Shown piece by piece: positions 15 through 22,833 of a stretch of DNA of 39,026 nucleotides. The translations under genes and the position numbers were made by a program. The stretch comes from Chloroflexota bacterium (lineage in GTDB: Bacteria > Chloroflexota > Dehalococcoidia > GIF9 > UBA5629), in the NCBI GenBank assembly GCA_016865895.1, contig VGNY01000007.1, positions 1 through 39,026 of the forward strand. Direction: 5' to 3'. Every line of letters begins with the position of its first letter. Within the stretch, counting starts at the first letter, position 1. The notes under the pieces are model-generated. The model ran no database searches. It was not told the origin of the DNA and worked only from the letters and a program-made list of their open reading frames with translations.

Positions 15-1451
15 TTATCTTGTTACCTCTTTTACGAGCTTGCCATTAGATGAGATGACCTGAATGTTAAAGGGCATTTGGCCTAAAGCGTGCGTTGAGC
101 AGGATAGGCAAGGGTCGTAGCAGCGAATGGCTACCTCAACTCGGTTGAGTATACCTTCGGTTATTTTATTATCCTTTATATGCGTCTTGGCTACCTCATA
201 TACCGCTTTGTTCATGGCAGCATTGTTGTTGCCTGTGGCTACGATGAGGTTCACCTTTTTTATTTTACCAGTGTTATCTACCCAGTAGTGATGGAATAGA
301 GTGCCCCTTGGTGCTTCTAGGACACCAATGCCCTGCTCATTGTATTCATTTGAAGTGACTATCAGGTCAGTTGAGCATATATCCTTGTCTTCCAGTAGCT
401 GCTGGGTTCTTTCGATAGCATAAAGCAGTTCTATGAGACGGGCATAATGATAATATAGTGAACCTTCTACTATGCCATTGTTGCCCAGTTTCTTGAAATT
501 CTTGAGTTCAGCATTGGCTAAAGGGGTAGATATTCCATCGCTGACGTTAAGTCGGCCAAGGGGGCCAACTCGGTAAATACCTTTGGGATAGCCCAACTTC
601 TTGTAAAACGGGAACTTGAGATAGGACCAATCCTCAACATATTCGCTGATAATATTAAGGTAATTGGAGGGATTGAACTGATTTTCAAGCACTTTTCCTT
701 TTTGGTCAATTAACCTCAGTTTACCATCGTAGAGTTCCAGGTTGTTGTTTTCATCTACCAGTCCAAGATAGCCTGTGGGAAAACTGGCGCAGGTGCATAC
801 AAAGTCATTGTTTTTGTCATAATAGCCCTTTATTATGTCCAGAGCAATCTGGGTATCGGCAATAGCCCAATCTATCTGCTTTAGGAAGTAGTCACGGTAG
901 GTGTTGGACAGAGCTGTATTCATTCCGCCAGGCGTGGCACCGTTGGGATGGACTTTCTTGCCGCCCAACTTTTGAATGATTGTCTGCCCGAAGCTCCGAA
1001 GCTTTACACCTTTGACTGCCAGTTCAGGATTTTCGGCAATCAGCCCTATAACATTTCTTTTTGTTGGGTCGGCATCCATACCGAGAAGTAAATCTGGGCT
1101 GGCCAGATGGAAGAAATGGAGAGCATGGGATTGGATAAATTGCCCCATGTGCATTAATTCGCGTAACAATTTAGCCGGGCGAGTTAGCTCAATGCCTAAA
1201 ATCGCATCGCAGGCTTTAGCTGCAGCCAGATGATGGCTTACCGGGCAGATGCCGCAGATTCTGGGTGTGATTACTGGCATTTCCCAGAAAACCCTACCCT
1301 CGCAGAACTTTTCAAAGCCTCGAAACTGCGTTACATGGAATTTGGCGTCAGCAGCATTACCCGAATCATCTAGTTGTATGGTTACTTTGCCGTGTCCTTC
1401 AATCCGGCTAACCGGGTTTATTTCAATAGTTTTTTTAACTTCAGAAACCAT
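15..1451 (-). CDS. hoxH: [NiFe]-hydrogenase large subunit, HoxH-like (group 3 type)
   Basis: N-terminal [11 protein letters not shown] and C-terminal DPCLSCSTH Ni-binding motifs followed by a C-terminal extension. ATG at 1451 has an AGAGGTG SD; the ORF-track start at 1472 is an upstream TTG. Confidence 0.93.
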
Positions 1452-1464
1452 ATCTTCACCTCTT

Positions 1465-2001
1465 TCAATCAAAGCGCATCATCTCACTGGGCAGAACTGG
1501 GATTCTGCCTGCCAGGAGTTCGTTTAGAGCGTATAAGATAGCTTTAGGCTCCGGAGGGCAGCCTGGAACATAGCAGTCCACCTTTACTACATGATTTGCT
1601 GGTTTTACCTGGTCCAAGAGTGCTGGGACACCGGGCGGGCGAGGTATCTTACCCTTGTAGGTGCTCTCGGTCTCGATATATCCACGTCTGAGAACATCTT
1701 CTTTGTCGAAAGTGCTGCGCATGGCGCATACACCTCCGAAGCAGGCGCAATCACCCCAGGCCATCAGTATCTTGCAGTTAGCTCTCAAGTGTTTCAGTGT
1801 CTCCTCCTCTTCGGTATTGCCAACGGAACCTTCTACTATACCGACATCTACCGATGAAAACTCTTTTATATCGGTTACGGGAGTCCTGGTGAATTCAACG
1901 ACTTTGGCTAGCTCAATTATTGCCTCATCGATATCCAAGAATGACATGTGACAGCCAGCACAGCTTTCCAACCACACTGTAGCTACTTTGACCTTTGCCA
2001 T
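1465..2001 (-). CDS. hoxY: [NiFe]-hydrogenase small subunit, HoxY-like (short, proximal cluster only)
   Basis: [18 protein letters not shown] and VPGCPPEP motifs; 178 aa; immediately upstream of hoxH. Confidence 0.92.
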
Positions 2002-2013
2002 GTGATTAACTCC

Positions 2014-4017
2014 TTATTTTCGATTACTATTTTTTATATGTTTTGCGATATCGCGTAATATTTCTGAATCTGTCTTGATGCCATCAGGCGGTTTGATGAG
2101 GCGCGAAGTTGATTTGACTACACCGTCCAGAGTACTGTATTTTCCGCCTACTTCTGTCCAGATTGGCGATGGCAATACTACATTGACTTTCGACATTGGA
2201 GGTGAGAAATAGCTGGACTGAACAACTATAAACTCTATTTCCTTGCGAAGGTGTGGTAATTCTGCCGAGTCAATATAGTCATCAGCTAAGAGTATATATA
2301 AAGCCTTTACGCCGTTTTTGGTCAAGTTCTTAATAATAGATTGCGATGGGTTGGCTACTCCCATATCCCAGGCCCCACGGCTATTTCCCTTAGGCTTTAG
2401 GGATATGATTTTTGGCTTTCCACTGCTTTGGCTTTCAGAAACAGCCGCTAGGTTAAGGAGGGCTGTTATAAGCCCTGGGTTTCGCTGTTGCAGAATGCCT
2501 TCACCGTAGATGATGATGCTGTGTTGAGCCTTGATGAGCATCTCAGCAGCCTCAAGAAAGTCGTCAGCACCAATCCCAGCTTGTTCACTGCCTTGCTTTA
2601 CATTAATGTCCTTAAGGGAAGCTGCTGTTTTCTTCGCCTGTGCAGAGCCTTTTTTAGGACCTTTATCAATGGTGGCTTTAGTCAGGATGTTTAGAGCCAA
2701 AGCCTCCTTACCTTCTTTTGGTTTCAACCATAGAGTCGAGTGATAAACGAAGGCATTTTGCGTTTGGTCGATAACGATAAGTTTTGCCTTGTTTTGCCTT
2801 GCTGCTCGGGCGATATAAGAACCAGCTATAGGGTGGCTTTTAAGCGGATTGGCACCTACTACGAGTATACAATCAGCCTTGAGTATTTCCTCTAGTGAGG
2901 TCTCGATGTTCAGCCCAGCCGTCGCTTGGTAAGTCTTGGTGCCTTGGATAATGGCTCTGTAGATATCTCCGTCGAGAGTATCGATTAGCTCACTGCCAAT
3001 GGTCACGGTGATGAATTCCTTAAAAGCCTTGAGGGACTCGTTGCTAGCTTGGCTTGATGCTATGCCAGCTATGCTGTTATCGCCGTATCGTGCCTTCAAT
3101 TCTGCAAGCTTTTTAGCTGTTATATCTATGGCTTCACTTAAAGGTCGGGATTCGAGCTTACCACGGCCGTTTCTTACCAGTGCTGTATCGATTCTTTTGT
3201 TATTTTTGTACAATGGAGCGAAACGTCCTTTGTGGCAAAGTATGCCGCGTTTGTCTATGAGGTCAGGACTATCAATTTTTACGAGCCTGTTATCCTTGAC
3301 TAGTGCCTCAATTTGACAACCAACACCGCATATTGGGCATATGCTGCTTACCTTTTGGCATTCCTCTGGTTTACCCTTGTAGGCGCTCGTTTTAGAGAAA
3401 ATTGCGCCGGTAGGGCAAGCTTGAAAGCAAGCTCCGCAAGAAATGCAGGATGAGTTACCTAGAGGTTGATTAAGGTCAGCTACAACCGTGTCCTTCCAGC
3501 CGCGGTTGCCAAAATCTAGTGTATGCATACCAACAATTTCATCACATGTTCTGATACATCTACCGCATAAAATACAGCGATTGTGGTCAATAACCAGGTA
3601 ATCGTTTACTGAGTCTACTGGCAGAGCAGGCCAGGAATATGGATAACGGGCATTGTCCATCTGGTACTTATAAGCAAGGCTCTGCAGTTCACAATCGCCG
3701 CTGGCTACACATTGAGCGCACAGGTGGTTGCGTTCGGTGAACATCAGTTCCAAGATGAGGCGGCGGTACTTCTCCAGCTTTTCGTTATGTGTCTGTATCA
3801 CCAACCCATCCCGCGCTGGATAAGTACAGGCGGGCACTGGTCGTCTCTCTCTTTCGATTTCGACTACGCAGAGGCGACAAGCGCCGACATCGCTCAATCC
3901 CTTGTAGTGACAGAGTGTGGGCAAATCAATACCGTTAATCTGGCAGATGTCGAGAACGGTATCACCCTCCCTGCCTTTAACCTGTTTACCATTGATTGTT
4001 AGAGTTATCTCTTTCAT
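2014..4017 (-). CDS. hoxU: HoxU/NuoG-like protein: 2Fe-2S, His-Cys cluster, 2x[4Fe-4S] plus degenerate molybdopterin-oxidoreductase-like C-terminal domain
   Basis: CxxC 2Fe-2S N-terminus, CAQCVASGDCELQ, CILCGRCIRTC, CISCGACFQACP, CPICGVGC...GILCHKG, then a NuoG-like domain; 667 aa. Confidence 0.85.
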   Translation of the reverse strand: MKEITLTINGKQVKGREGDTVLDICQINGIDLPTLCHYKGLSDVGACRLCVVEIERERRPVPACTYPARDGLVIQTHNEKLEKYRRLILELMFTERNHLCAQCVASGDCELQSLAYKYQMDNARYPYSWPALPVDSVNDYLVIDHNRCILCGRCIRTCDEIVGMHTLDFGNRGWKDTVVADLNQPLGNSSCISCGACFQACPTGAIFSKTSAYKGKPEECQKVSSICPICGVGCQIEALVKDNRLVKIDSPDLIDKRGILCHKGRFAPLYKNNKRIDTALVRNGRGKLESRPLSEAIDITAKKLAELKARYGDNSIAGIASSQASNESLKAFKEFITVTIGSELIDTLDGDIYRAIIQGTKTYQATAGLNIETSLEEILKADCILVVGANPLKSHPIAGSYIARAARQNKAKLIVIDQTQNAFVYHSTLWLKPKEGKEALALNILTKATIDKGPKKGSAQAKKTAASLKDINVKQGSEQAGIGADDFLEAAEMLIKAQHSIIIYGEGILQQRNPGLITALLNLAAVSESQSSGKPKIISLKPKGNSRGAWDMGVANPSQSIIKNLTKNGVKALYILLADDYIDSAELPHLRKEIEFIVVQSSYFSPPMSKVNVVLPSPIWTEVGGKYSTLDGVVKSTSRLIKPPDGIKTDSEILRDIAKHIKNSNRK

Positions 4018-4019
4018 GT

Positions 4020-7000
4020 CTACTCTCCTACCTCAAGGTCACATCTTAGACATCGGCTGGCTTCTTCTCTCGCCTCCTTAACACTGTAGGGCAAGACCAC
4101 CTCTTTAAAGGAAGCCTTTTTATCGGCGGTGGCAATCTCGGCAATCTTTATTCGATGTCTTTCCTTAAGCTCTTCTTCAGTAGGCATCACAGAGGGGACT
4201 GCTATGGGCTCGTAGCCGTTTCGTTCTACCAGTGGTGAAAGCTCCTCACCTCGAAGGAATCTCTTTATGGAGCAGGCTGCCCTTTGGCCAGTAGCGATCG
4301 CTTCAATTACAGTCGCTGCGCCTGTAACGGCGTCTCCCCCAGCGAAAACTCCCTTGCGACCCGTAGCAAGGGTTCTGGGGTCAGCTACTATTGTTCCTCC
4401 CCTCGCGGTGCCGATTCCATCGCCTTTCAGAAATGAGGTATCTGGTCTTTGACCTGTAGCCTCGATCAGTGTATCAAAATCCATTTTGTATTCAGATCCT
4501 TCTTTTGGATATGGGGTCTTTCTTCCGCTCGTGTCAAACTCCTTTAATTCCATGCGGACACATTCAAGTCCGGCTACCTTGCCATCCTTGCCTAATACTT
4601 TAGTTGGGGCTGTCAGGCAGTGAATCTGAATACCCTCTTCTTCAGCAGATGCTATTTCTTCGACTATGGCTGGCATGTCCTTCTTTTCACGACGATATAG
4701 TATGTGAACTTCTTTAGCCCCTTTTCGCAAGGCTACCCTTGCTGCGTCGACGGCAGAATTACCACCACCGACGACCGCCACCTTTTGTCCTACCTTTATG
4801 TCTTTCCCCAAGCTTATTTCTCTCAGAAAATCAATAGCGTCATATACCTCTTTCAATTCCTCACCCGGGATTTTCATTTTGTCTCCCTTGTGAGCGCCGG
4901 TGGCGATGAACACTGCTTGGTACCCAGCTTTCAACAGCGATTCGACATCATCAACACGATTGTTCAATCTTATATCGACCCCGAGCTTTTCCACGGTTTC
5001 AATTTCTCTCTTGAGTATTTGTTTGGGGAGGCGGTATTCAGGTATGCCAACTGCTAACATTCCTCCAGCTACAGGCAGAGCTTCAAGAACTGTGACCTGA
5101 TATCCCTCTTGAGCAAGGTCCCAGGCTGCTGACAATCCGGCTGGCCCTGCGCCGATAATAGCGACCTTCTCCTTTTTGCGTTCCTTGATCTTGGGAATAT
5201 ATTCAAGTCCGTGCTCGAAAGCGTAGTCAGTAGCAGCTCTTTTGAGATGTCTGATGGCAACTGGGTCATCTATCTGACCTCGTCGGCATTTGCTTTCACA
5301 TGGGTGGTTACACACCCGTCCGACGCTAAAGGGGAAGGGCAGCCTCTGTATAATCAAGCGATAGGCCTGCTCGAATTTTCCTTCCTTAATGAGAACGACA
5401 TATCCTGGGACATCGAGCCCTACAGGACAGGTATGTTGGCATGGTGCTTTGAGTAAGGCCTGGCAGACTGCAGCTGGGCATTTTTTGTCTATGATATGAG
5501 CTTCATATTCCTGTCTAAAGTGGCGCAGTGTAGTCAGGACCGGATTAGGTGCTGTCTGCCCTAAACCACAGATAGAAGCAGAGCCAACCATTTCGGCTAA
5601 TTCCTCTAATGTAGTGAGGTCTTCCATGGTGCCTTTGCCATCTGTGATCTTAGTTAGAAGCTCCAGCATCTTTGGAATCCCTGCCCGGCAAGGAGTGCAT
5701 TTACCGCAGGACTCGTCTCTCGTGAATTGGAGGAAGAACTTGGCGACATCATTGACCATGCAGCTATCCTCATCCATGACTACAAGTCCACCTGAGCCCA
5801 TAATTGCTCCTAAAGCAGTGACGGCCTCGTAGTCGACAGGGGTGTTCAGGTGTTCGATCGGGATGACACCCCCGGATGGACCACCTATCTGCACTGCCTT
5901 GTATTTTTTCCCCTGTGGTATACCGCCGCCGATGTCAAACACAATCTTTCCTAGGCTAGTGCCCAGTGGAACTTCAACCAACCCGGTGTTGTTTACCTTC
6001 CCTACCAAACATAGTGTCTTTGTGCCTTTACTTCTTTCGGTGCCGACACTTCCGAACCATTCGGCCCCTTTCCAGATTATCTGTGGGATATTCGACCAAG
6101 TCTCTACATTGTTAAGCGTGGTTGGTCTACCGAAAAGCCCTTTGTTGGCTGGGAATGGTGGTCGCTGGCGTGGGTTTCCTCGTTTTCCTTCGATTGAGAT
6201 TAAGAGAGCAGTTTCCTCTCCACAAACAAAGGCACCAGCACCTGGGAATATATCTAGATCGAATTGGAAGCCAGTACCCAGTATATTTTTTCCTAGAAGG
6301 CCATATTCTCGGGCCTGGGTTATAGCATGGTTCAATGTCTCGATAGCAAGGGGGTATTCAGCGCGGACATATGCATAGCCTTGCCGCACATTGCCTATGG
6401 CATAAGCTCCTATTGCCATTCCCTCAATTATTGAGTGTGGATTTCCTTCTAAAACGGCACGGTTCATATAGGCACCCGGGTCTCCTTCATCACCATTACA
6501 GACAACGTATTTCTCATCGCCTGGGGCACTGCGAACAAACGACCACTTCGTGGATGTAGGGAAACCTGCTCCTCCACGTCCTCTTAAGGCAGCTCGTCCG
6601 ATCTCTTCGATGACTTCCTCTGGCTTCATTTTAGTGAGAGCCTTGGCCAATGCTTGATAGCCATCCCTGGCAATATATTCTTCTATATTCATCGGGTTGA
6701 GGTCTTGGTTATGCATAATCCTTATCTCTTGTAGCTTGATCAACGGGTCATCGGTGTTTAGCTTCCATTCCTCTACCACTTTACTGCGAACAAGATGTTG
6801 CTCAACAACATTAGGGACTTTATCATCAGTGAGGTCATAGTAGGTAGTTTTCCCGTCCGAAGGATGGACAACTGTGACTACTGGTTCTCGATCACACAAC
6901 CCGATGCACGCTGCTTTTAACACAGTGACATCTGGTAATTTGCGGTCTTTGACCTCTCGTTGAAAAGCTTCAAGTACCTTGTTTGCTCCTGAAGATATGC

Positions 7001-7112
7001 CACATGTTCCAAGATGAACCTTAACTTGGATCTTCCTTTCTTGTCCCGATAGTCTATCACGGATTTTGTCTCTAAACTTCGTAAGTTCTTCTACAGATGC
7101 AAGTGGTTTCAT
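4020..7112 (-). CDS. hoxF: NuoF/HoxF-like NADH-binding subunit fused to GltD/NfnB-like FAD-NAD(P) oxidoreductase
   Basis: NuoF signatures (GRGGAGFPTSTKW, CNGDEGDPGAYMNR, ESCGKCTPCRAGIPKM); then DPD-type Fe-S domain (CQHTCPVG, RVCNHPCESKCRRG) and two Rossmann motifs (AIIGAGPAGLSAA, AVVGGGNSAVDAAR); 1030 aa. Confidence 0.92.
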   Translation of the reverse strand: MKPLASVEELTKFRDKIRDRLSGQERKIQVKVHLGTCGISSGANKVLEAFQREVKDRKLPDVTVLKAACIGLCDREPVVTVVHPSDGKTTYYDLTDDKVPNVVEQHLVRSKVVEEWKLNTDDPLIKLQEIRIMHNQDLNPMNIEEYIARDGYQALAKALTKMKPEEVIEEIGRAALRGRGGAGFPTSTKWSFVRSAPGDEKYVVCNGDEGDPGAYMNRAVLEGNPHSIIEGMAIGAYAIGNVRQGYAYVRAEYPLAIETLNHAITQAREYGLLGKNILGTGFQFDLDIFPGAGAFVCGEETALLISIEGKRGNPRQRPPFPANKGLFGRPTTLNNVETWSNIPQIIWKGAEWFGSVGTERSKGTKTLCLVGKVNNTGLVEVPLGTSLGKIVFDIGGGIPQGKKYKAVQIGGPSGGVIPIEHLNTPVDYEAVTALGAIMGSGGLVVMDEDSCMVNDVAKFFLQFTRDESCGKCTPCRAGIPKMLELLTKITDGKGTMEDLTTLEELAEMVGSASICGLGQTAPNPVLTTLRHFRQEYEAHIIDKKCPAAVCQALLKAPCQHTCPVGLDVPGYVVLIKEGKFEQAYRLIIQRLPFPFSVGRVCNHPCESKCRRGQIDDPVAIRHLKRAATDYAFEHGLEYIPKIKERKKEKVAIIGAGPAGLSAAWDLAQEGYQVTVLEALPVAGGMLAVGIPEYRLPKQILKREIETVEKLGVDIRLNNRVDDVESLLKAGYQAVFIATGAHKGDKMKIPGEELKEVYDAIDFLREISLGKDIKVGQKVAVVGGGNSAVDAARVALRKGAKEVHILYRREKKDMPAIVEEIASAEEEGIQIHCLTAPTKVLGKDGKVAGLECVRMELKEFDTSGRKTPYPKEGSEYKMDFDTLIEATGQRPDTSFLKGDGIGTARGGTIVADPRTLATGRKGVFAGGDAVTGAATVIEAIATGQRAACSIKRFLRGEELSPLVERNGYEPIAVPSVMPTEEELKERHRIKIAEIATADKKASFKEVVLPYSVKEAREEASRCLRCDLEVGE

Positions 7113-7121
7113 CCTATTCTC

Positions 7122-7640
7122 CTATCGATATGAACTCAGGATTTCTTTTAGCTGGCTAGGTTTTACCTTTCGATGAACATTCTCCCTTATAGCCATTACC
7201 GGAGATAGCCCACAGCAGCCGATACATCTTACCATCTGTAGGGAGAATTTACCGTCGGGTGTAGTCCCACCAGACTCAAGGCCGAGGTCTTTCTTCAGAA
7301 CATCAAGAATCCTCTGCCCCCCTTTAACATAACAACTGGTGCCCAAGCAGACCTGAATTACATACTTACCCTTTGGCACCATTGAGAAGAAGGAGTAAAA
7401 ACTCGTTATGCCGTACAATTCGCTCAGGGGGATTCTCATTTCTTTAGAGATAGCTTCTAGGATTTCGGGTGGCAGGTAACCGATAAGTTCTTGAATTTGC
7501 TGTAGTACCCGAATTGGAGCTCCGGCCTGCCCGTTGGTGGCTTCAACTATTTTTCTGATTTGCTGTAGTGTCTTCTCATTAATCTTCTTGCTTGTTTTTC
7601 CTTGCGATAGCGCGACTATGTTTGCTTGTTTCAAGGTCAC
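7122..7640 (-). CDS. hoxE: NuoE/HoxE-like thioredoxin-fold [2Fe-2S] subunit
   Basis: CLGTSCYVKGG and CIGCCGLSPV motifs; first gene of the hox operon with an AAGGAGGTGA SD. Confidence 0.92.
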   Translation of the reverse strand: MTLKQANIVALSQGKTSKKINEKTLQQIRKIVEATNGQAGAPIRVLQQIQELIGYLPPEILEAISKEMRIPLSELYGITSFYSFFSMVPKGKYVIQVCLGTSCYVKGGQRILDVLKKDLGLESGGTTPDGKFSLQMVRCIGCCGLSPVMAIRENVHRKVKPSQLKEILSSYR

Positions 7641-8131: not shown

Positions 8132-8252
8132 TGCCACGGCAGATTTTTGCCTGATAGCAATGGTGAACCCAGAGATTTTTCTGCTGTATTCTGATTGATA
8201 TACTATCTGATATATTTCTTGTAAAATTTCATTTCTAGTAAGGAGGTTTAAT

Positions 8253-10046
8253 ATGTGGAAGACCGAAGCCACTGGGGTTGCGCACACGGAGATGGTAGTA
8301 AGGCAGTGTCTGCCACCGTGTCAGGTTAAATGTCCTATAAATGAGGATATCCAGCGGACAAACGTACTTATTTCGCTTCTCCCGGATGACTCAGATTTGG
8401 CAAGAGAGGGCATAATCCAGATTAGCGAGTATCTCTATGATAAGAATCCCTTCTTCAACATTTGCGGTTACATCTGTGGCATTTGTGAACTTGAGTGTAA
8501 CTACAGCAAGAAGGGTGGGGCAATTAAGAGAAGACTACTCAAAAGATTCTTGTCAGATGTCTATACTGACCATTTAAAGGAGCGAGAAGAATTAGAGGTT
8601 CTCAAAGATAAGGAAAATGTGGCTGTTATAGGTGGTGGGCCTGGTGGTCTAATGTGTGCCTACCACTTAAGCAAGAGGGGATATCGCGTAACAATATTCG
8701 AAGCCTCTGATCGACTTGGTGGAGCGCTATGGTTAGTACCAGACTACCGCTTGCCCAAGGATGTTCTGCAAGCCACGGTGGAAAACCTCGTAAGAATTGC
8801 TGGCGTAGAGGTTAAGTACAACAGCAGGCTTGGGTCAGGGAAATTGACGCTGGAAAGACTCAAGAATGAGGGCTATAAGGCGGTGTTTCTGGTAACGGGG
8901 TTGCCATATCCTAGGGTCCTGACCTTTGAGGGGCAGTCTGTGGAAGGGCAAGACCTATCAGGTGTGATGTACGGACTTACCTATCTATATGAAGTCGGCC
9001 ACGGCAATATCGCACCAGATTATTTTAAAGGCAAAAGAGTCATAGTTACAGGAGGCGGAAATGTAGCCTTTGATGTGGCCAGGTCAGTTAGGAGACAAGG
9101 TGGAGAGGTAACTATCGTATGTCTTGAATGTGAGGATAAGGACTGCAAAGATGGTATACCGGCTGACGAAGAGGAAATCCGTGGGGCCTGGGAGGAGGGT
9201 ATAAGAATAGTCTACAGCCGCGGTGTGAGAAAAATCGTCGGACAGGGTGGCAAATTCAAGGGAATCAATTGTCCAGCGTGTGTTAGCGTGTTTGATGAAG
9301 AAGGATTCAATCCCAAGTTCGATTGTACTGACTGTATAGATTTAGAGGGAGATGTGCTCATAATCACAATTGGACAGGCTCCCGATAGGCCTCTGCTGCA
9401 GAAAGAAGGCCTTCTGGATGAACGGGGTAGACTTGATATTGACCACTTGACGCTGCAGAGCTTACGTAAGCCTTGGCTATTCATAGGTGGTGATGTGAGG
9501 AGAGTCGGCTTCATGATAGAAGCTATGGGAGAAGGACTTGTGGCTGTCGAATCTATTGACAGGTATTTGAGGGGTGTAGATATGAAGGAAGGTCGAAGAA
9601 GAGATTATGAAGGATATGAGATACCGTTCAGAAGAGACTATAAACGTGAACCTGAGGTGCTCTGGATACCGCCTGAAAACAGAATGCATTTCCAACTTTT
9701 TGAGAAGGGCTTCACATTAAAAGAGGCGATAGAAGAGGCGAAAAGGTGTGTCACTTGTGGTCCCTGTCTATCTTGCAAGGCCTGTGTATCCATTGGGTTT
9801 CAGAAGTCTCTAAGTCCAGTGGAGGTAGATGTTGGGAAGTGTAGTGGCTGTGGTCATTGTGTCTATGCCTGTAATTATTATGCCGCACGTTTGGTTAACA
9901 TTGGTGGCAAAATCACATCTGAAACCGATATGTTCAAGTGTAAGTCCTGCGGCATGTGTGTTGTGGCTTGTCCGTCCCAAGCAAGAAGGATGGTTGATGA
10001 TGATACGACAGAGAGAATAGCCAGAGTATTTGCATCCCTGTCATAG
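8253..10046 (+). CDS. GltD/NfnB-like FAD-NAD(P) oxidoreductase with N-terminal Fe-S domain and C-terminal bis-[4Fe-4S] ferredoxin domain
   Basis: CLPPCQVKCP, NICGYICGICELEC; VIGGGPGGLMCA and VTGGGNVAFDVA; C-terminal CSGCGHCVYAC and CKSCGMCVVACP; SD AAGGAGG. Confidence 0.9.
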   Translation: MWKTEATGVAHTEMVVRQCLPPCQVKCPINEDIQRTNVLISLLPDDSDLAREGIIQISEYLYDKNPFFNICGYICGICELECNYSKKGGAIKRRLLKRFLSDVYTDHLKEREELEVLKDKENVAVIGGGPGGLMCAYHLSKRGYRVTIFEASDRLGGALWLVPDYRLPKDVLQATVENLVRIAGVEVKYNSRLGSGKLTLERLKNEGYKAVFLVTGLPYPRVLTFEGQSVEGQDLSGVMYGLTYLYEVGHGNIAPDYFKGKRVIVTGGGNVAFDVARSVRRQGGEVTIVCLECEDKDCKDGIPADEEEIRGAWEEGIRIVYSRGVRKIVGQGGKFKGINCPACVSVFDEEGFNPKFDCTDCIDLEGDVLIITIGQAPDRPLLQKEGLLDERGRLDIDHLTLQSLRKPWLFIGGDVRRVGFMIEAMGEGLVAVESIDRYLRGVDMKEGRRRDYEGYEIPFRRDYKREPEVLWIPPENRMHFQLFEKGFTLKEAIEEAKRCVTCGPCLSCKACVSIGFQKSLSPVEVDVGKCSGCGHCVYACNYYAARLVNIGGKITSETDMFKCKSCGMCVVACPSQARRMVDDDTTERIARVFASLS

Positions 10047-10080
10047 ATGCTCAATAAAAAGTATTTTAAGGAGGAGAACA

Positions 10081-10527
10081 TTGAGCGAATATAAACCCAA
10101 GTTAGTGTGTTTTTCCTGCAAGTTTGGCTGGGGCTATCTGACGGATGAAGCTGCCCTCTCCAGTAAGATAGAGAACTGGATACCCATTATTTGCACAGGA
10201 AAAATCGATGCTGCCCATGTGATTAATGCGTTCGAAGAAGGGGCTGATGGAATCTTGATACTCGGTTGCCCGGAAGGTGATTGTCATTATCAAGACGGTA
10301 ACTATGAGGCAAAAAAGAGAGTTTACATCCTCCACAGGCTGCTGGAGCCTATGGGTATAGAGAAGGAAAGGATTAAGCTAGAGCTGTCTATTGACCCCGA
10401 AGGTAGGAGAATACCGCAACTAGTGAAAGAGATGAGCAAGGAGCTTGTAAAACTAGGCCCGTGCAGGAAGGCCAAAGCGGCAGAGAAGATGCCGAGAGAG
10501 GTAGTTAAAGCAAGAGGGGGGGAATAA
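10081..10527 (+). CDS. mvhD: MvhD-like hydrogenase iron-sulfur (delta) subunit
   Basis: CFSCKFGWGYLTDEA...GCPEGDCHYQDGN; TTG start at 10081 after AAGGAGGAG SD, in frame with the track ORF that starts at 10030. Confidence 0.88.
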   Translation: MSEYKPKLVCFSCKFGWGYLTDEAALSSKIENWIPIICTGKIDAAHVINAFEEGADGILILGCPEGDCHYQDGNYEAKKRVYILHRLLEPMGIEKERIKLELSIDPEGRRIPQLVKEMSKELVKLGPCRKAKAAEKMPREVVKARGGE

Positions 10528-10528
10528 G

Positions 10529-11491
10529 ATGACGAAGCCAAAAGTTGCCATTTGCTGGTTGGGCTCCTGTGGGGGTTGTGACGAGGCGGTCGTTGATATA
10601 AATGAAGTGCTCCTTCGCGTTGCAGAAGCGGTTGACATCATACTATGGCCAGTGGCGCTGGACTTCAAGTATGATAGTATTAGAGGCCTGAAGGATGGCG
10701 AAATCGTATTAAGTGTGGTCAATGGACATGTCAGAAATTCGGAACAAGAAGAGATAGCTAATCTACTGAGGGAAAAATCTCAGTTGGTTCTTGCCTTTGG
10801 TGCCTGCGCCTGCTTTGGTGGTACGCCTGGATTAGCCAATCTGACTACAAAGGAGGACATCTTTAATTGGGTCTATCGTGATGCCCCAACGGTGGTAAAT
10901 CCCAATGGGAACTATCCTCAAGTGAGCACTCACGTCAATGGAAAAGAGCTCACTCTCCCCGAATTCTATGACCATGTCTATGCATTGAACGACATAATTG
11001 ATGTAGATTATTACTTACCGGGGTGTCCACCTCCTCCCTATTTGGTAATGTATGCTGTGAGCGCAGTCCTCGAGAATAAGCTTCCCCCTAAAGGCTCAAC
11101 CCTGGCGCCTCAAAGAGCCTTGTGTGATACCTGTAAGCGCAACAAGTCGAAGCCAGATAGGCTGGCAATAAGGGAAATTAAGAGGATCCACGAGGTGGAA
11201 GCGGACCCTGAGACTTGCTTTCTGGCTCAAGGGATAATCTGCGTGGGACCTGCCACCCGTGACGGCTGTGGAGAAGCCTGTATGAATATCAATATCCCGT
11301 GCCGGGGATGCTTTGGCCCTGTGGAAGGAGTTGTGGATTCCGGAGCTAAGTTTGTCTCCGCTTTGGCATCAATCCTAGATGTACAGAGTGAAGAAGAGAT
11401 AACTAGGATTGTAGACCAGATTGTTGACCCTGCAGGATACCTGTACCGATTCTCACTACCCGCTTCGATATTGAAGAAAAAAAGAGGCTAA
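10529..11491 (+). CDS. mvhG: [NiFe]-hydrogenase small subunit, MvhG-like with additional C-terminal Fe-S clusters
   Basis: CWLGSCGGCDEAV, GACACFGG, LPGCPPPP, C-terminal CGEACMNINIPCRGCFGP. Confidence 0.9.
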   Translation: MTKPKVAICWLGSCGGCDEAVVDINEVLLRVAEAVDIILWPVALDFKYDSIRGLKDGEIVLSVVNGHVRNSEQEEIANLLREKSQLVLAFGACACFGGTPGLANLTTKEDIFNWVYRDAPTVVNPNGNYPQVSTHVNGKELTLPEFYDHVYALNDIIDVDYYLPGCPPPPYLVMYAVSAVLENKLPPKGSTLAPQRALCDTCKRNKSKPDRLAIREIKRIHEVEADPETCFLAQGIICVGPATRDGCGEACMNINIPCRGCFGPVEGVVDSGAKFVSALASILDVQSEEEITRIVDQIVDPAGYLYRFSLPASILKKKRG

Positions 11492-11517
11492 AGGATTAGA
11501 TAGGAAAGAGGTGTAAT

Positions 11518-12981
11518 GTGACCAAAAAGATAACCGTAAATCCAATTACTAGACTTGAGGGGCATGGGAAAATCGAGATTTTTCTGGATGATAAGGGTAA
11601 CGTAGACGATGCCTACTGGCAAGTAGTTGAACTGAGGGGTTTTGAAAGGTTCTGTCTCGGTAGGCCTGTGGAGGAGTTGCCGCGGATTATGCCCAATATT
11701 TGTGGCGTTTGTCCAACACCCCATAATATGGCATCTGTAAAAGCCCTGGATGACTTGTATGGAGTAGAACCAACACCCACTGCCAAGTTGGTAAGACAGC
11801 TCCACTACAATGCGTTCATGGTGGAAGACCATTTGCTGCATTTCTTTATACTCTCCGCACCAGATTTTGTGCTTGGACCAAGTGCTGACCCTGCGGAGCG
11901 GAATATTCTCGGTGTAGTAGCAAAGGTTGGGTTGGAGATCGGCGGCAAAGTTATAGAGGTTAGAAAGAGATGCCGTGAGATAATTCGTTACCTTGGTAGT
12001 AAGCCTCCTCATCCCGAAGGTGGTTTACCTGGAGGAGTACCCAAGGGAGTCACTGAAGAGGACAGAAGGTGGATAAAGGAGACTGCTGATTTCACTGTTG
12101 AATTTTGCCAGTTTGCTCTGGAGTTATTTAAGCAGATTGTCCTGGATAATAAACAATACCTAGACCTTGTCCTGAGTGACGCTTATAAACTGAACACCTA
12201 TTATATGGGGCTAGTTGATGAGAATAACCGAGTGAATTTTTATGAGGGTAAATGCAGGGTGGTCAATCCCAAGGGCGAGGAATATGCCTTGTTTGACTAT
12301 CACGATTATGTTGACCACATAGGAGAGTGGGTCGAACCCTGGACATACATAAGGCTAACTCACCTGAGGAAAATAGGATGGAATGGTTTGAACGATGGTA
12401 AGACAACATCGCTGTACCGTGTAGGTCCCCTTGCTAGGTTAAACGCAGCTGAAAAGATGTTAACTCCCCTCGCACAGAGAGAATATGAGGCAATGTTCGA
12501 CACATTGGGCGGCAGACCAAGTCACCATACTCTGGCCTACCATTGGGCAAGATTGATTGAAGCCTTCCAGGCTGCGGAGCATATGCAGAGGATTGCTAAT
12601 GACCCCTTGCTGACCAGCAAAGATATACGTAATATGAATTTAAAATTGGACAAGGTTGGTATCGGCTGTGTTGAAGCGGCACGTGGGACGTTAATCCACC
12701 ATTATGAGACTGATGGTGACGGAAAGACTACAAAGGTGAATCTTATCGTAGCCACTCAGCACAACGCAGCTCCCATATGCCTATCTGTTAAGAAGGCAGC
12801 CATGGGATTTGTTAAGGGGCCGGAGGTAAAGGAAGGTTTACTTAATATGGTAGAGATGGCTTTTAGAGCCTATGACCCCTGCCTAGCCTGTGCCACACAC
12901 GCTTTGCCGGGTGGGATGCCATTGGTAGTGAATATAAGAGAGCGAAATGGCGACCTGATACAAACTGTGCAGAGACCGTGA
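11518..12981 (+). CDS. mvhA: [NiFe]-hydrogenase large subunit, MvhA-like
   Basis: NPITRLEGHGK, NICGVCPTPHN, DPCLACATHALPGGM; GTG start at 11518. Confidence 0.92.
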   Translation: MTKKITVNPITRLEGHGKIEIFLDDKGNVDDAYWQVVELRGFERFCLGRPVEELPRIMPNICGVCPTPHNMASVKALDDLYGVEPTPTAKLVRQLHYNAFMVEDHLLHFFILSAPDFVLGPSADPAERNILGVVAKVGLEIGGKVIEVRKRCREIIRYLGSKPPHPEGGLPGGVPKGVTEEDRRWIKETADFTVEFCQFALELFKQIVLDNKQYLDLVLSDAYKLNTYYMGLVDENNRVNFYEGKCRVVNPKGEEYALFDYHDYVDHIGEWVEPWTYIRLTHLRKIGWNGLNDGKTTSLYRVGPLARLNAAEKMLTPLAQREYEAMFDTLGGRPSHHTLAYHWARLIEAFQAAEHMQRIANDPLLTSKDIRNMNLKLDKVGIGCVEAARGTLIHHYETDGDGKTTKVNLIVATQHNAAPICLSVKKAAMGFVKGPEVKEGLLNMVEMAFRAYDPCLACATHALPGGMPLVVNIRERNGDLIQTVQRP

Positions 12982-13204: not shown

Positions 13205-14641
13205 ATGAATAAGGCGTTGTCTGAAGAAGTAAAAACGACGGACTACTCTCCTGAACAAAGAGCACTGATTCTCCGGCTCAGTGTATATATCAATATGAGA
13301 TGGCTTGCCATTCTAGCCATCATCGTTGCTACACTAGTAGCAACAGAGGTATTTGATATCTACCTTCCCACCGTACCAGTTTATGTAATTTGCGTGGTTA
13401 TCGCATCCTATAATTTCGCATTTTTACGCTTGACGCAAGGCTTGAAAACACCAAAACCTGGGTTGATTATCAAGAAAACTGCGACCTATGGTAATGTCCA
13501 GATAATTCTCGACTTGGTAATGCTCACTGCACTTCTACATTTCACTGGAGGAATAGAAAACCCGTTCATATTTCTGTACATGATCCACACTACTGCAGCC
13601 GGTATATTTCTTTCCCGGAGAAGGTCGTATCAACTGACCACGTTAGCCATGGTTATGGTGACACTTCTAGTTTTTTTGGAGTATACTTGGATAATACCCC
13701 ATGTAAATCTTGCGGGATTTGTGCTTGCATATCGATACAGAGATTTGGGCTATGTCGTTGGTGTCCTGGTTGCCTTGGTGACCTTGGCTTATGCCTCCAC
13801 TTATGTGACCACCTCTATTGTGGGCGAGCTAAGGAGAAGACAACGGGAAGTGTTAAAATTGAGGGACCAGCTTATCGAACAAAGAACCATGGAGTTGGAA
13901 CAGTGTTCTAGTGAAGTAGTCAAACTGGTTGAGGAAAGGAAACGTTTTGTCCAGTTTCTCAGCGTTGTCGCTCATGACCTCCAGTCTCCCTTGGTAGCCA
14001 CCCAGAGTTTGCTATCCTATATAGTCGATGGATATACTGGCGAGATTACTGATGGGCAGAAAGACCTGATGCAAAGGGGTATTAGGAGAATCGATGGGCT
14101 TCTGACGTTGATTACAGACTTATTGGACATACCTCGTATTGAAGCCGGTCAGATTAATCGCGAGATGAGGGAAATATCCGCGAATGAGGTGATTAAGCAG
14201 GCTATGGAGGGCCTTGATAGCTTGGCGAGGCAGAAAGGTTTGGTGCTGAAGGTTGAATTACCTGAAAATTCACCTAAAATTTATGGGGCAAGTCGTAGGC
14301 TGCAGCAGGTCGTAACTAATCTGACAAGTAATGCTATCAATTATACGCGCGAGGGCACGGTGCTGGTTAGGCTGACAGATGGCGACAACGATATACGGGT
14401 TGAAGTAGTAGACAGCGGAATTGGAATACCGCCTGAGGATTTATCTCGGTTATTTGAAGACTTTTTCCGAGGGAGTAATGTGGGAGCAAAGGGTACCGGA
14501 TTGGGACTGTCCATATCCAAGAGAATAATAGAAGCTCATGGAGGTAAGATTTGGGCTGAAAGCCCTTGCTCTGAAACTGGTAAGGGAAGTAGGTTTACCT
14601 TTACTCTGCCGAAAAGACGAGTGGTCGATCAGAGAGGCTAG
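13205..14641 (+). CDS. Membrane sensor histidine kinase (multi-TM N-terminus, HisKA and HATPase_c)
   Basis: Hydrophobic N-terminal helices, H-box [11 protein letters not shown]-box [34 protein letters not shown]. Confidence 0.92.
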
Positions 14642-14696: not shown

Positions 14697-15074
14697 ATGC
14701 CACAGAGACCAAAGATTCTACTTGTTGATGATGATGTTGACCTTGTGACGGTGATGAGAGGAGCTTTGGAAAGCAAGGCTTACGAGGTGATTGTAGCCTA
14801 CAACGGGCAGGAGGGACTGGAAAAGGCAAGAAAGGAGAAGCCCGATTTGGTAGTTTTGGATATACTGATGCCGGTGGCGGATGGATTTATCTTCGCTGAC
14901 CAATTTCGCAAAGACCCATCGCTTGCCAAAACCCCTGTCTTAGCGCTGACAAGCTTTTCTGAGTCACTAGGCCAGCCGTTTCCATTTGACGTTTCTGAAT
15001 ACATCATGAAACCTATTAAACCCAAGGATTTAGTGGCTAAGGTTGAAGAGTTTCTAAAGAAGACAAGTTCCTAG
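14697..15074 (+). CDS. Single-domain (CheY-like receiver) response regulator
   Basis: LLVDDDVDL, VVLDILMPVADG, conserved T/K positions (LALTS, YIMKPIKPKDL); 125 aa with no output domain; SD AAGGAGGTG. Confidence 0.92.
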   Translation: MPQRPKILLVDDDVDLVTVMRGALESKAYEVIVAYNGQEGLEKARKEKPDLVVLDILMPVADGFIFADQFRKDPSLAKTPVLALTSFSESLGQPFPFDVSEYIMKPIKPKDLVAKVEEFLKKTSS

Positions 15075-16511: not shown

Positions 16512-17252
16512 ATGAGTGTACGTACTGTTGGCATTATCGGTGATGGGGAGCTAAAGGGTTGGCTGCAAGAACTTTTGTCAAAGGCAGACTTCAAAGTCAT
16601 CACCTCTGATTTGAATCAGGATTACGCTGACCAAGTCTCGGCTACTGATTTAGTTTTAGAGGCTGTGGCTGAAGATTTTGCTTTGAAAAGGAAAGTATTT
16701 GAGAATTGCGATAGTAAATGCCGCAAGGAAACGATTTTGGCAACTACCACTGCTAATCCCTGTATTACGAAACTAGCGGCAACGACTAAAAGGCCGGAGA
16801 AAGTCATTGGCCTCAACTTCACCAAAAATCCATTCGAGGAGAAATACCTAGTTCAGATAGTGAGAGGACTGCAAACTTCTGAAGATGCTGTGCAGACTTC
16901 GAGGGATTTTTTGGAGAAGGCGGGTATTGTCGTTGCAAAACTTGAGGAGGCGCCAGGTTTTATTCTGGACAGGGTGATTGCCTCGATAGTTAATGAGGCT
17001 GCCGTCATGTATTCAGCGAAATTGGCGAGCCTTGAGGATATTGACAGGATGATGAAGGTCTGTGTGAATTGGCCTATGGGGCCCTTCGAATTTGGTGATA
17101 CTATCGGTGTGGACAAGGTAGTGGAAATTATGGAGTCTCTATCACAGCAACTTGGCCCCAAGTATATGCCTAATTTTTTGCTCAGGAAAATGGTTGATGC
17201 TGGCTGGTTGGGAAAGAAGACGGGGAGAGGATTCTATGTATATAGCAAATAA
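16512..17252 (+). CDS. 3-hydroxyacyl-CoA dehydrogenase-like protein with divergent catalytic residues
   Basis: HADH fold segments (NWPMGPFEFGDTIGVD, GWLGKKTGRGFYVYSK) but GLNFTKNP where GLHFFNP is expected; shortened N-terminus. Confidence 0.82.
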   Translation: MSVRTVGIIGDGELKGWLQELLSKADFKVITSDLNQDYADQVSATDLVLEAVAEDFALKRKVFENCDSKCRKETILATTTANPCITKLAATTKRPEKVIGLNFTKNPFEEKYLVQIVRGLQTSEDAVQTSRDFLEKAGIVVAKLEEAPGFILDRVIASIVNEAAVMYSAKLASLEDIDRMMKVCVNWPMGPFEFGDTIGVDKVVEIMESLSQQLGPKYMPNFLLRKMVDAGWLGKKTGRGFYVYSK

Positions 17253-17269
17253 TTCAGGTGGAGGCAAAG

Positions 17270-18055
17270 ATGAACTTTGAAAACATTATTTACAGTAAGG
17301 AGAACGGGATAGCCAGAATCACCGTAAATAGGCCTGATAAGCGAAACGCTCTAAATCAGGGGGTAAGGCTGGAACTACGACAAGTGCTTAAGGATATCGA
17401 AGATGACGAAAGCGTTAAGGTGGCTATTATCACCGGTGCCGGAGATAAGGCATTTATAGGTGGTGCCGACATAACAGAGCTCAAGGAAATGAGTCCTATA
17501 ACTTGTGAGGCACGGGCATCCACTTTAGGCCAGCAGCTTTATACAGATATAGAAAATCTTAGAGTTCCTGTTATAGCTATGATAAATGGGTTTTGCCTTG
17601 GTGGTGGCTGTGAAATAGCTATGTGCTGTGATATAAGGATTGCTTCAGAAAATGCTAATCTGGGGCAGCCAGAGATTAATATCGGTCTTTTCCCCGGTGG
17701 TGGTGGCACGCAAAGGTTACCTCGGCTCGTTGGCTGGGGAAGAGCTAAAGAATTGCTATATACGGGTAGAATAATAGATGCTGCTGAAGCGGAGAGAATC
17801 GGTTTGGTAGATAAAGTGGTTCCGCAGGATAAATTGGAGTTGACTGTTACTGAACTAGCAAAAACTATAGCCAGCAAAAGCCCGGTGATTATCAGGCTGC
17901 TTAAGAAGGTAATTAACAAGGGAATGTATTCCAGTCTACCCGATGGTTTGGCTTATGAGAAAAGCACCTTCGGTCTTTGCTTTGCTACCGAGGACCACAA
18001 TGAGGGCATAGCAGCTTTCCTCGAGAAGCGACAGCCGGAGTTTAAAGGTAAATAG
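17270..18055 (+). CDS. Enoyl-CoA hydratase/isomerase (crotonase)
   Basis: GGGCEIAMCCDIRIA, GQPEINIGLFPGGGGTQRL (both catalytic Glu positions present); ATG 17270 after AGGTGGAGG. Confidence 0.93.
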   Translation: MNFENIIYSKENGIARITVNRPDKRNALNQGVRLELRQVLKDIEDDESVKVAIITGAGDKAFIGGADITELKEMSPITCEARASTLGQQLYTDIENLRVPVIAMINGFCLGGGCEIAMCCDIRIASENANLGQPEINIGLFPGGGGTQRLPRLVGWGRAKELLYTGRIIDAAEAERIGLVDKVVPQDKLELTVTELAKTIASKSPVIIRLLKKVINKGMYSSLPDGLAYEKSTFGLCFATEDHNEGIAAFLEKRQPEFKGK

Positions 18056-18074
18056 AAGGTTTGGAGGCGAGAAA

Positions 18075-18938
18075 ATGGAGATCAGAAAGATTTGCGTCTT
18101 AGGTGCTGGGGTTATGGGACATGGAATTGCCCAGGTTTGTGCTCAGGCAGGATATCAGGTTAATCTGCAGGATATTAAAGACGAGCTTGTGCAGGCTGGT
18201 ATTAACAAGATTCGAAAATTCCTTGCTGGTGGTGTTGAGCGCAAGAAGATGACACCAGATGAAGCGGATACTATTTTGAATCGGATAGAGGGCATGATTG
18301 ATTTGAAAGAGGCAGTCAAAGATGTTGACTTAATCATCGAGGCTATAGTTGAAGATATAAACATAAAAAAGGATGTCTTTAAGGAGCTAGACCAAATATG
18401 CTCTGCGGATACTATATTTGCCTCCAATACTTCAGCTCAGAGCATCACCGAGATGACGATGGCAACCAAGCGGCCTGGCAAATTCATTGGTATGCACTGG
18501 TTCAATCCGCCTCAGCTTATGCGGGGGATAGAAATCATTGTTCATGATAAGACCTCCAACGACACTCTGAATACCATGGTGGATTTATGCAAGAAGCTGG
18601 GTAAAGAGACGGGCGTATGCAAAGACTCACCAGGGTTTATTGTCAACAGGCTTATCCAAATCTGGTACAACGAAAGTCTGAATATGTTTGATGAAGGCAT
18701 AGCTGAGCCGCCAGATATAGATACTGCTTTAAAAGCGGGTTACAGTTTTAGGATGGGGCCTTTTGAGTTGCGTGATATGGTTGGCATGGATGTTGCTTTA
18801 GCTAGCACCGGGACGCATTACCGAGAGTTGATGAGAGAGCAATTCAGGCCACCAAGATGTCTGATAATGAAGGTGAAAGCTGGTGAGTTGGGGAGGAAGA
18901 CAGGTCGAGGTTTCTATGAGTATAAGTCTGAAGCTTGA
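18075..18938 (+). CDS. 3-hydroxyacyl-CoA dehydrogenase (canonical active site)
   Basis: GAGVMGHGIA, SNTSAQSITEM, GMHWFNPPQLMRGIEII, GRKTGRGFYEY. Confidence 0.93.
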   Translation: MEIRKICVLGAGVMGHGIAQVCAQAGYQVNLQDIKDELVQAGINKIRKFLAGGVERKKMTPDEADTILNRIEGMIDLKEAVKDVDLIIEAIVEDINIKKDVFKELDQICSADTIFASNTSAQSITEMTMATKRPGKFIGMHWFNPPQLMRGIEIIVHDKTSNDTLNTMVDLCKKLGKETGVCKDSPGFIVNRLIQIWYNESLNMFDEGIAEPPDIDTALKAGYSFRMGPFELRDMVGMDVALASTGTHYRELMREQFRPPRCLIMKVKAGELGRKTGRGFYEYKSEA

Positions 18939-18956
18939 ATCAGGTGATGTCAGAAA

Positions 18957-19628
18957 ATGAAAATCAATGTAATGACCGATGTCCTTGAAGCCAATGACCG
19001 CATAGCTGCAGCCAATAGCGAGGTCTTTAAGAAGCACCGGAACCTGGTGCTTAACCTGATGAGTTCGCCAGGAGCCGGGAAGACGACCTTGCTGGAGAAA
19101 ACTGCTGAGGCGCTCAAGGGTAAGCTTCGCCTCGGTGTGATTGCCGGGGATATTGAGACTACTCGTGATGCGGAACGGCTGCAGAAATATCGGCTTCCTG
19201 TTGTGCAGCTTACTACTGGTTCTGCTTGTCATCTCGATGCAAATATGGTCGCCTCCGCGTTACCTCACATTGACCTGAGCAAGTTGGATATTCTTATTAT
19301 CGAGAACGTGGGGAATCTCGTCTGCCCCGCAGAATTCAAGCTGGGCGAAGATTTCAAAATCATGATGCTCAGTGTCACCGAAGGAGATGAGAAGCCGCTC
19401 AAGTATCCGCTGATGTTTCGTGAATCAGCACTGCTGCTAATCAACAAAATCGATTTGCTGAAGTATACCAATTTCAATTTAGAGGAGGTGAAGGCGAACG
19501 CACGCAAGGTTCATCCAGCCTTGGAGATTATAGATATTTCCTGCACCGCAGGCCGGGGAATTTCAGAATGGATAGAGTGGATTAGTCAGCGCTATCATAA
19601 AAAATTTGGGATTAAAACACGTGCATGA
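18957..19628 (+). CDS. hypB: Hydrogenase nickel-incorporation GTPase HypB (no His-rich N-terminus)
   Basis: SPGAGKTTLLEKT, GDIETTRDAERL, GSACHLDA, ENVGNLVCPAEFKLGE, NKIDLL. Confidence 0.95.
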   Translation: MKINVMTDVLEANDRIAAANSEVFKKHRNLVLNLMSSPGAGKTTLLEKTAEALKGKLRLGVIAGDIETTRDAERLQKYRLPVVQLTTGSACHLDANMVASALPHIDLSKLDILIIENVGNLVCPAEFKLGEDFKIMMLSVTEGDEKPLKYPLMFRESALLLINKIDLLKYTNFNLEEVKANARKVHPALEIIDISCTAGRGISEWIEWISQRYHKKFGIKTRA

Positions 19629-19962
19629 GATGGCAATTGCCCGAAATATAGTAAATATTGCCATTACTGCAGCTGAGAAAGAAGGTGCCAAGAAGATTAC
19701 CAGAGTTAATGTAGTAGCGGGGGAACTGAGGGGAATTATCCCTGCACAACTGATTTTTAGCTTTGGACTGATGGCGGAGAATACTATTGCTAGCGGAGCT
19801 TATCTTGATTTAGAAATAACGCCGCTAATAGGAAAGTGCAAGCAGTGCGGTGAGGTGTTTGTGGTGAAAGATTATTGTTATGTCTGTCCCAAGTGTCGGG
19901 GTGAAGATATACAAACTGTCAGCGGTATAGAGCTTCGAGTAAAAGATATCGAGGTTGAATGA
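19621..19962 (+). CDS. hypA: Hydrogenase nickel-incorporation protein HypA
   Basis: GTG start at 19621 gives (M)HEMAIARNIV with the conserved N-terminal MHE; Zn motif CKQCGEVF...CPKC; overlaps the hypB 3' end. Confidence 0.93.
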   Translation: MHEMAIARNIVNIAITAAEKEGAKKITRVNVVAGELRGIIPAQLIFSFGLMAENTIASGAYLDLEITPLIGKCKQCGEVFVVKDYCYVCPKCRGEDIQTVSGIELRVKDIEVE

Positions 19963-19984
19963 TAAAGCGAAAGGAGATTATCTT

Positions 19985-21085
19985 ATGGCTGGGACAGTCT
20001 ATGAAAAACTGGCTGATGCTCTGAGTATAAGAGGTGGGGCAGTGCCCGCTGTAAAGTGCAAGGAGTTCTTTGCCTTGCTGGAGGAGCTTTTTACTCCAAA
20101 AGAGGCGGAGCTGGCGACTAAAATGCCTGTCAGTCCGTTTCCTGCGGTGACCTTTGCCAAAGAGGTCATTGGTGGAGACCCTGATGAAGTGAGGAGACTT
20201 CTGGAGATTATGGCCGACAGGGGGACGGTTTTCACCATCGACCGCGATGGTACGAGGTTTTATACGCTTATGCCGTTGGTTCCAGGTATTTTTGAAATGC
20301 AGTTTATGGGTGGGGAGGTGAGTAATCGCACCAAAAAACTGGCCAAGCTTTTCGATGATTATTTTGTTTTGATTGGACAGGCAACGGTACGTCAGCCGGC
20401 TGCTTCTGAAGGTGGCACTGTTGTTCCATTTGCCAGAGTCATCCCGGTGGAGGCGGATATACCGACTGATGTTACCATCCATCCCTACGACAAGGTCTCC
20501 GAATATATTGCCAAGTCAGACTATATAGCGATTGGCACCTGCTACTGTCGCCATCACGGCGAATTGATTGGAAATCCCTGTAGCAAGCCAAAGGATGTGT
20601 GTATGGCTTTTGGACCTCAAGCTAAATATGTTGCTGAACGTGGCTTTGCCAGGCTGGTGTCAAGGGAAGAGGCGATTGAAGTCCTCAACCGTTCTGAAGA
20701 AGCTGGGCTTATACATTGCTCCAGCAATACTGGCAAATACATCAATTTTATGTGTAATTGTTGTGATTGCCATTGCGGTATTATCCAGAGCATGAAGAGG
20801 GGCGTCATTCCCATGGGTGCGGTCTCAAGTTTTATTGTGGCCGTTGATGAAGATGCATGTAATGGGTGTGGCACCTGTATAGATAGGTGCCAGATGGATG
20901 CGCTTACTCTGGATGGCACCATGCTGGTTCGAGATGGTAGGCGCTGTATTGGATGTGGGCTCTGCATCTCGGCATGCCCCACGGAGGCATTGAAGGTGGA
21001 ACTAAGGAAGGATGCACCGGTACCGCCTCGTGACCAGCGGGAACTGAATGCAGCCATGATATCTTCTCTACCGCAGAATAAGTGA
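19985..21085 (+). CDS. Cys-rich 4Fe-4S dicluster protein
   Basis: GTCYCRHHG...NPCSKPKDVC, FMCNCCDCHCG, CNGCGTCIDRCQMDA, CIGCGLCISACPTEA; ATG 19985 after AAAGGAG. Confidence 0.85.
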   Translation: MAGTVYEKLADALSIRGGAVPAVKCKEFFALLEELFTPKEAELATKMPVSPFPAVTFAKEVIGGDPDEVRRLLEIMADRGTVFTIDRDGTRFYTLMPLVPGIFEMQFMGGEVSNRTKKLAKLFDDYFVLIGQATVRQPAASEGGTVVPFARVIPVEADIPTDVTIHPYDKVSEYIAKSDYIAIGTCYCRHHGELIGNPCSKPKDVCMAFGPQAKYVAERGFARLVSREEAIEVLNRSEEAGLIHCSSNTGKYINFMCNCCDCHCGIIQSMKRGVIPMGAVSSFIVAVDEDACNGCGTCIDRCQMDALTLDGTMLVRDGRRCIGCGLCISACPTEALKVELRKDAPVPPRDQRELNAAMISSLPQNK

Positions 21086-21143
21086 TTTAGAATAACGGGA
21101 AAGGGTATCCCGTTTATATCCAAAATCAGAGTAGCGAACAGCA

Positions 21144-22799: not shown

Positions 22800-22833
22800 C
22801 GCTAACGTTAGTTTAGAAAGTAGGAGCCAAAAC

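Follow-up and report, generated by a model that had tools for sequence, protein, structure and literature searches.

Evidence for a GltD-type flavoprotein in the place of HdrA beside MvhD in a [NiFe]-hydrogenase operon of Dehalococcoidia

MvhD is regarded as the connection from [NiFe]-hydrogenases to HdrA, and a group 3c assignment is often read as a sign of HdrABC-type bifurcation. What, then, does MvhD serve when its operon encodes another kind of flavoprotein? The question arises from contig C7 (39,026 nucleotides; hereafter the window) of a draft Chloroflexota genome (2.6 Mb, 96% complete, 8.9% contaminated), where four adjoining genes on the + strand encode a GltD-type flavoprotein (GltDFer4), MvhD, MvhG and MvhA (Table 1). 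A first-pass annotation proposed that the flavoprotein substitutes for HdrA in an H2:NAD(P)/ferredoxin enzyme. Comparative sequence analysis supports the first half of this proposal well and narrows the second.

Table 1. Features of the GltD-linked hydrogenase operon and its downstream neighbours in the window
Feature	Position	Strand	Basis
RBS AAGGAGG, flavoprotein gene	8240..8246	+	sequence
GltDFer4, GltD-type FAD/Fe-S flavoprotein, 597 aa, lead gene	8253..10046	+	profiles, orthologues
Fer4_20-like N-terminal region, aa 18-105	8304..8567	+	Fer4_20 23.5 bits against cut-off 25.8; alignments
FAD domain with embedded NAD-binding Rossmann domain, aa 122-427	8616..9533	+	Pyr_redox_2
CLECEDKDCKDGIP, aa 290-303, at the site of the NfnB/GltD NADP-binding YRR motif	9120..9161	+	alignments
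CVTCGPCLSCKAC, aa 499-511, displaced CxxC and three more conserved Cys	9747..9785	+	alignments
C-terminal 2[4Fe-4S] ferredoxin domain, aa 528-577; proposed (inferred) MvhD contact	9834..9983	+	
RBS AAGGAGG, mvhD	10068..10074	+	sequence
MvhD, FlpD family, 148 aa, probable TTG start	10081..10527	+	
MvhG, [NiFe]-hydrogenase small subunit with MvhG-type C-terminal cluster region	10529..11491	+	
MvhA, large subunit of a group 3c-like [NiFe]-hydrogenase with intact Ni ligands	11518..12981	+	
Sensor histidine kinase, co-conserved in many relatives	13205..14641	+	
Response regulator, single-domain	14697..15074	+	

The flavoprotein and its hydrogenase subunits

The lead gene had been described as an NfnB/GltD-like FAD protein with N- and C-terminal Fe-S domains, and profile searches bear this out. 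The GltD-like model PRK12771 matched the full-length protein with 317.6 bits (curated cut-off 516), and Pfam recognised Pyr_redox_2 (E 8e-29), a 4Fe-4S dicluster at the C-terminus and, narrowly missing its cut-off, Fer4_20 (E 5e-5). Structures of GltD and of Nfn (the latter with E 1e-50 to 1e-52) were also matched, and the layout of these enzymes, an N-terminal Fe-S region followed by an FAD domain with an embedded NAD domain, is retained. NfnB, GltD and PRK12771 share the fold family of GltDFer4 and are its best sequence matches; it differs from them in falling below the PRK12771 cut-off, in having lost the YRR motif and in having no NfnA among its conserved neighbours. The same searches rule out a bona fide HdrA: the HdrA2 model NF040770 gave only 36.3 bits, confined to the ferredoxin stretch (aa 524-585), the HdrA model NF041891 gave 32.1 bits (cut-off 1300) at a generic FAD-binding motif (aa 116-159), and neither an N-terminal HdrA domain nor a TrxR-like FAD core was matched.

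Across 14 aligned proteins of clade A (at least 61% identity) and nine of clade B (51-57%), C23, C27, C71, C75, C78, C82, the FAD motif, C499-C511 and the ferredoxin cysteines are kept, with rare exceptions. The segment bearing the first CxxC of NfnB-type proteins sits C-terminally here, residues 12-57 of 4ylf aligning to aa 472-514. By analogy with the ligands of NfnB as given in PMC7596348, the six N-terminal cysteines together with C499 and C502 are predicted to hold two [4Fe-4S] clusters. DsrL is built in the same way, with an Fe-S region at the N-terminus, an FAD domain enclosing an NAD domain, a linker and a C-terminal 2[4Fe-4S] domain, and it likewise connects a redox enzyme to NAD(P)H (PMC7596348). 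However, the partner of DsrL is DsrAB, and the shift of the N-terminal CxxC to the C end sets the present flavoprotein apart; no dsr genes were found among the window proteins scanned.

The three hydrogenase proteins are full-length homologues of subunits of the methanogen MvhADG-HdrABC complex (5odc; group 3c), with their Cys ligands. The listed mvhD reading frame begins at 10030; the TTG given in Table 1, with AAGGAGG ahead of it, is probably the true start. MvhD matched 5odc_D with 98 bits and retains the conserved cysteines; it reads CFSCKFGWGY in place of CNWCSYxGADxAG, and clade A as a whole carries CFSC(K/R)F(G/S)WGY and has lost four residues, as against CNWCSY in Hdr-linked MvhD. MvhG matched 5odc_E with 237 bits and retains the proximal, medial and distal cluster cysteines, and MvhA has both Ni-binding Cys pairs intact (ICGVCPTPH and AYDPCLACATH). 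Of the features that mark group 3c, the MvhA motifs ICGxCxxxH and AYDPCxxCATH (as defined in PMC6085437) are present, as are MvhD and an MvhG whose C-terminal region would accommodate two additional [4Fe-4S] clusters, whereas a functional association with HdrABC finds no support in gene content. The operon shares with the methanogen complex the role of MvhD as adapter between hydrogenase and flavoprotein, but it contains no HdrA, HdrB or HdrC, its flavoprotein is of another family and its MvhD is a subtype of its own.

Close relatives of the flavoprotein occur in one MAG each of Chloroflexi (91%), Dehalococcoidia (67%) and Desulfuromonadaceae (61%) and on a contig recorded as Bipolaricaulota (81%); as far as named records show, its kinship is with Dehalococcoidia. 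It was found in 32 of 393 genomes evenly sampled from the class and in three of 400 from the phylum, these being the named close kin only, while a plasmid search gave matches of 28-31% only.

Divergent from the operon, on the - strand (15-7640), lies a second [NiFe]-hydrogenase operon of HydABCSL/Hox-like type, encoding NuoE, a NuoF-GltD domain fusion (1030 aa), a NuoG/molybdopterin-type protein and short MvhG-like and MvhA-like subunits; several relatives keep such an operon alongside the GltD-linked one. NiFe-HydABCSL (NiFe-Bfu) and Hox are comparable as soluble NAD(H)-linked [NiFe]-hydrogenases, but they use a NuoF-type FMN subunit, which is absent from the GltD-linked operon and present in the divergent one. 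Genes of acyl-CoA metabolism (3-hydroxyacyl-CoA dehydrogenase, enoyl-CoA hydratase, methylmalonyl-CoA mutase and thiolase) occupy 16512-28032 and are a possible source of NADH.

Conserved gene order and natural fusions

The order GltDFer4-MvhD-MvhG-MvhA, for which the first-pass annotation had suggested a search, was found in all 20 clade A loci whose contigs extend far enough (the window, G023, G003, G069, G079, G076, G039, G059, G001, G019, G013, G061, L028, G257, G187, G281, G223, G179, G242 and G010, the last with its flavoprotein split by the contig), the Desulfuromonadaceae MAG among them. Five more contigs end within the gene set and agree in order (L029, G277, G361, G262 and G252), and no counter-example was seen among these clade A loci. 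Clade B has the order MvhG-MvhA-GltDFer4-HycI-MvhD or one near it (L082, L123-L127 and L129), and MvhD also adjoins in L128 and L048, an association in nine of 17 loci. The other eight have neither MvhD nor MvhGA beside the flavoprotein; five have hypF alone (L078-L081 and L083), and three have neither hypF nor MvhDGA (L076, L077 and L122). In a tree of 40 MvhA sequences, midpoint-rooted for drawing purposes, all 25 GltD-linked sequences fell in one clade (support 100/97) next to the Hdr-linked ones. The groupings of flavoprotein, MvhD and MvhA agree.

At one clade B locus (L128:7833-10016) the flavoprotein (53% identical) and an FlpD/MvhD domain form a single protein of 727 aa. A more distant GltD-Fer4-MvhD fusion of 707 aa, followed by MetV and MetF, is encoded on contig C21 of the same genome as the window (L033:5042-8740), and this set recurs in at least five relatives. 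Both fusions favour the view that flavoproteins of this kind exchange electrons with MvhD, and we consider it very probable that GltDFer4 is the partner of MvhD. The C21 fusion stands where acetogens have an HdrABC-MvhD-MetVF set. A 390-aa ferredoxin protein with an FlpD domain, encoded next to a MetV-like gene (L125:11445-12617), recurs in clade B loci.

A ferredoxin domain of HdrA type was considered as a mark of docking. On a profile built from 17 such C-terminal domains, six clade B proteins (L077-L081 and L083) scored 71-90 bits (maximum 89.8), whereas proteins belonging to neither the Hdr nor the GltD-MvhD groups reached at most 34 bits, and the tail IMAEIEGVL accompanies this domain in part of clade B. 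The mark is plain there and does not discriminate for the window protein, which scored 35.0 bits against 33.3 for an unrelated ferredoxin protein of the window.

Cofactor, electron route and bifurcation

At the site of the YRR motif, CLE or ALE is found in 14 of 14 clade A and nine of nine clade B proteins aligned. In DsrL, loss of YRR accompanies measured use of NAD(H) (PMC7596348). Since the same replacement, (C/A)LE for YRR, occurs here, the cofactor is likely to be NAD(H) rather than NADP(H). Of the H2:NAD(P)/ferredoxin enzyme first proposed, the NAD(H) part is thus probable, the NADP(H) part is unlikely given the missing motif, and the ferredoxin half finds no support in the sequence. A GltD domain has also been proposed as the NAD(P)H entry to MvhD-linked complexes in Type III HdrA, an HdrA with an inserted GltD domain that occurs with mvhADG in ANME-1 and Bathyarchaeota (PMC12054007), and in Moorella HdrA (PMC9430772). 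There, however, it lies within a complete HdrA, whereas in GltDFer4 the GltD body stands by itself, joined to a ferredoxin domain but to no HdrA core.

These comparisons establish the gene content, a conserved partnership, intact cofactor motifs, the loss of the NADP motif and a gene distribution independent of HdrA; from them we infer a docking site, a cluster path, a cofactor, a direction and the absence of bifurcation. MvhD would dock on the C-terminal ferredoxin domain, and electrons would pass reversibly from NAD(H) through FAD, the N-terminal [4Fe-4S] clusters and the C-terminal 2[4Fe-4S] domain to the [2Fe-2S] cluster of MvhD, the clusters of MvhG and the NiFe site of MvhA, where H2 and H+ interconvert. 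The reaction would be H2 + NAD+ <-> NADH + H+, with no obligatory bifurcation. AlphaFold models were of low confidence (pLDDT 35 with no alignment and 41 with four sequences). On balance we favour, with some reserve, the reading of the four genes as a soluble group 3c-like [NiFe]-hydrogenase that works without HdrA as an NAD(H):H2 enzyme, and, with equal reserve, a linear over a bifurcating route.

Bifurcation involving ferredoxin is the main rival to the linear route. In NfnAB it is established that the bifurcating FAD of NfnB is flanked by low-potential clusters, and NfnB is the nearest solved homologue class of the flavoprotein; MvhD-HdrA complexes also bifurcate, and many Fe-S sites are kept in the present system. 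Yet no NfnA-type second flavoprotein was seen among the conserved neighbours, the H2/NAD+ couple does not need bifurcation, and the N-terminal clusters are required for a linear route too in GltD-type enzymes. Nothing was found in the sequence that points to a ferredoxin site or to ferredoxin reduction, and we regard this rival as unlikely.

More doubtful still is a new class of bifurcating [NiFe]-hydrogenase, in which a single GltD-type FAD, docked by way of MvhD, would divide the electrons of H2 between NAD+ and ferredoxin, and in which a phosphorylated receiver domain would directly switch the flavoprotein, as a free domain in clade A and as a fused one in some members of clade B. Four clade B flavoproteins do have a response-regulator receiver domain at the N-terminus (L125:7522-9741, L126:5656-7878, L077:6062-8308 and L122:9790-12117); the 727-aa upstream frame of L075, a chance open frame, has none. 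Downstream of clade A operons comes a histidine kinase gene, joined in the window by a gene for a single-domain response regulator. These fusions and neighbours suggest that phosphorylation may act on the flavoprotein itself.

HdrA in the same genomes and the place of the flavoprotein

The earlier statement that HdrABC is absent holds for the locus and not for the genome. No Hdr genes lie in the operon or window, and profile searches of the window found no HdrA core, their matches being limited to the MvhD stretch and to ferredoxin-type and flavin-motif stretches. Elsewhere in the genome, HdrA, HdrB and MvhD genes are found on contigs C60 and C154 (the latter as HdrB-HdrA-MvhD) and a second MvhDGA on C4, whose MvhGA is 93-95% identical to that of HdrABC-linked operons in relatives. 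We infer that this genome has such an operon, cut between C4 and C154. Four relatives (G003, G001, G023 and G223) have a separate HdrBC-HdrA-MvhD-MvhG-MvhA operon, and in two (G187 and G257) the order is HdrB-HdrA-MvhD-MvhG-MvhA, with TGA codons inside the reading frames. HdrA is present in 28 of the 33 genomes tested. In the other five with a GltD-linked hydrogenase no HdrA core was found, profile matches covering the ferredoxin/MvhD part only (G013, 92% complete; G357, 89%; G045, 82%; G079, 68%; G019, 62%), although in any single one this could reflect incompleteness. The HdrABC complexes with MvhDGA of their own, the genomes without any HdrA core, the kept gene order, the GltDFer4-MvhD fusion and the single MvhA clade together support well the view that a GltD-type flavoprotein replaces HdrA as partner of MvhD.

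In-frame TGA, probably specifying selenocysteine, occurs in HdrA, MvhD and some MvhA frames (L016, which is C154, L131-L133, L135, L136 and L140). Contig C60 encodes an HdrA-like protein of 1161 aa into which a GltD domain is inserted (L032:8439-11924), beside MvhD, HdrBC and an HdrA-MvhD fusion.

Could MvhGA nevertheless be shared, its own MvhD serving the flavoprotein while the MvhD of HdrABC complexes also recruits it? In methanogens FdhAB and MvhAG are reported to compete for one MvhD (PMC6085437), HdrA is widespread in the genomes concerned, and in L117, L119 and L130 HdrBC-HdrA-MvhD adjoins the GltD-linked operon, such that MvhGA could serve both. However, the HdrABC operons of G003, G001, G023, G223 and others have an MvhG-MvhA of their own and five genomes have no HdrA core, which leaves sharing improbable. 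That the flavoprotein is a mere neighbour with some other partner, such as a soluble ferredoxin or the divergent HydABCSL-type hydrogenase, would fit the three clade B loci where it lacks adjoining MvhDGA, but is very hard to reconcile with an association kept across two rearranged orders, the L128 fusion and the matching clades of flavoprotein, MvhD and MvhA.

In the open-access literature searched, we found no account of MvhDGA paired with a GltD-type protein that stands alone, and we provisionally regard the arrangement as new. If the model is correct, MvhD would be a more general adapter, able to serve an NAD(H) flavoprotein, and some Dehalococcoidia hydrogenases annotated as group 3c would be read as NAD(H)-linked rather than HdrA-bifurcating. 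Some Dehalococcoidia probably exchange electrons directly between H2 and NADH, and the operon offers a testable model of this exchange in uncultured members of the class.
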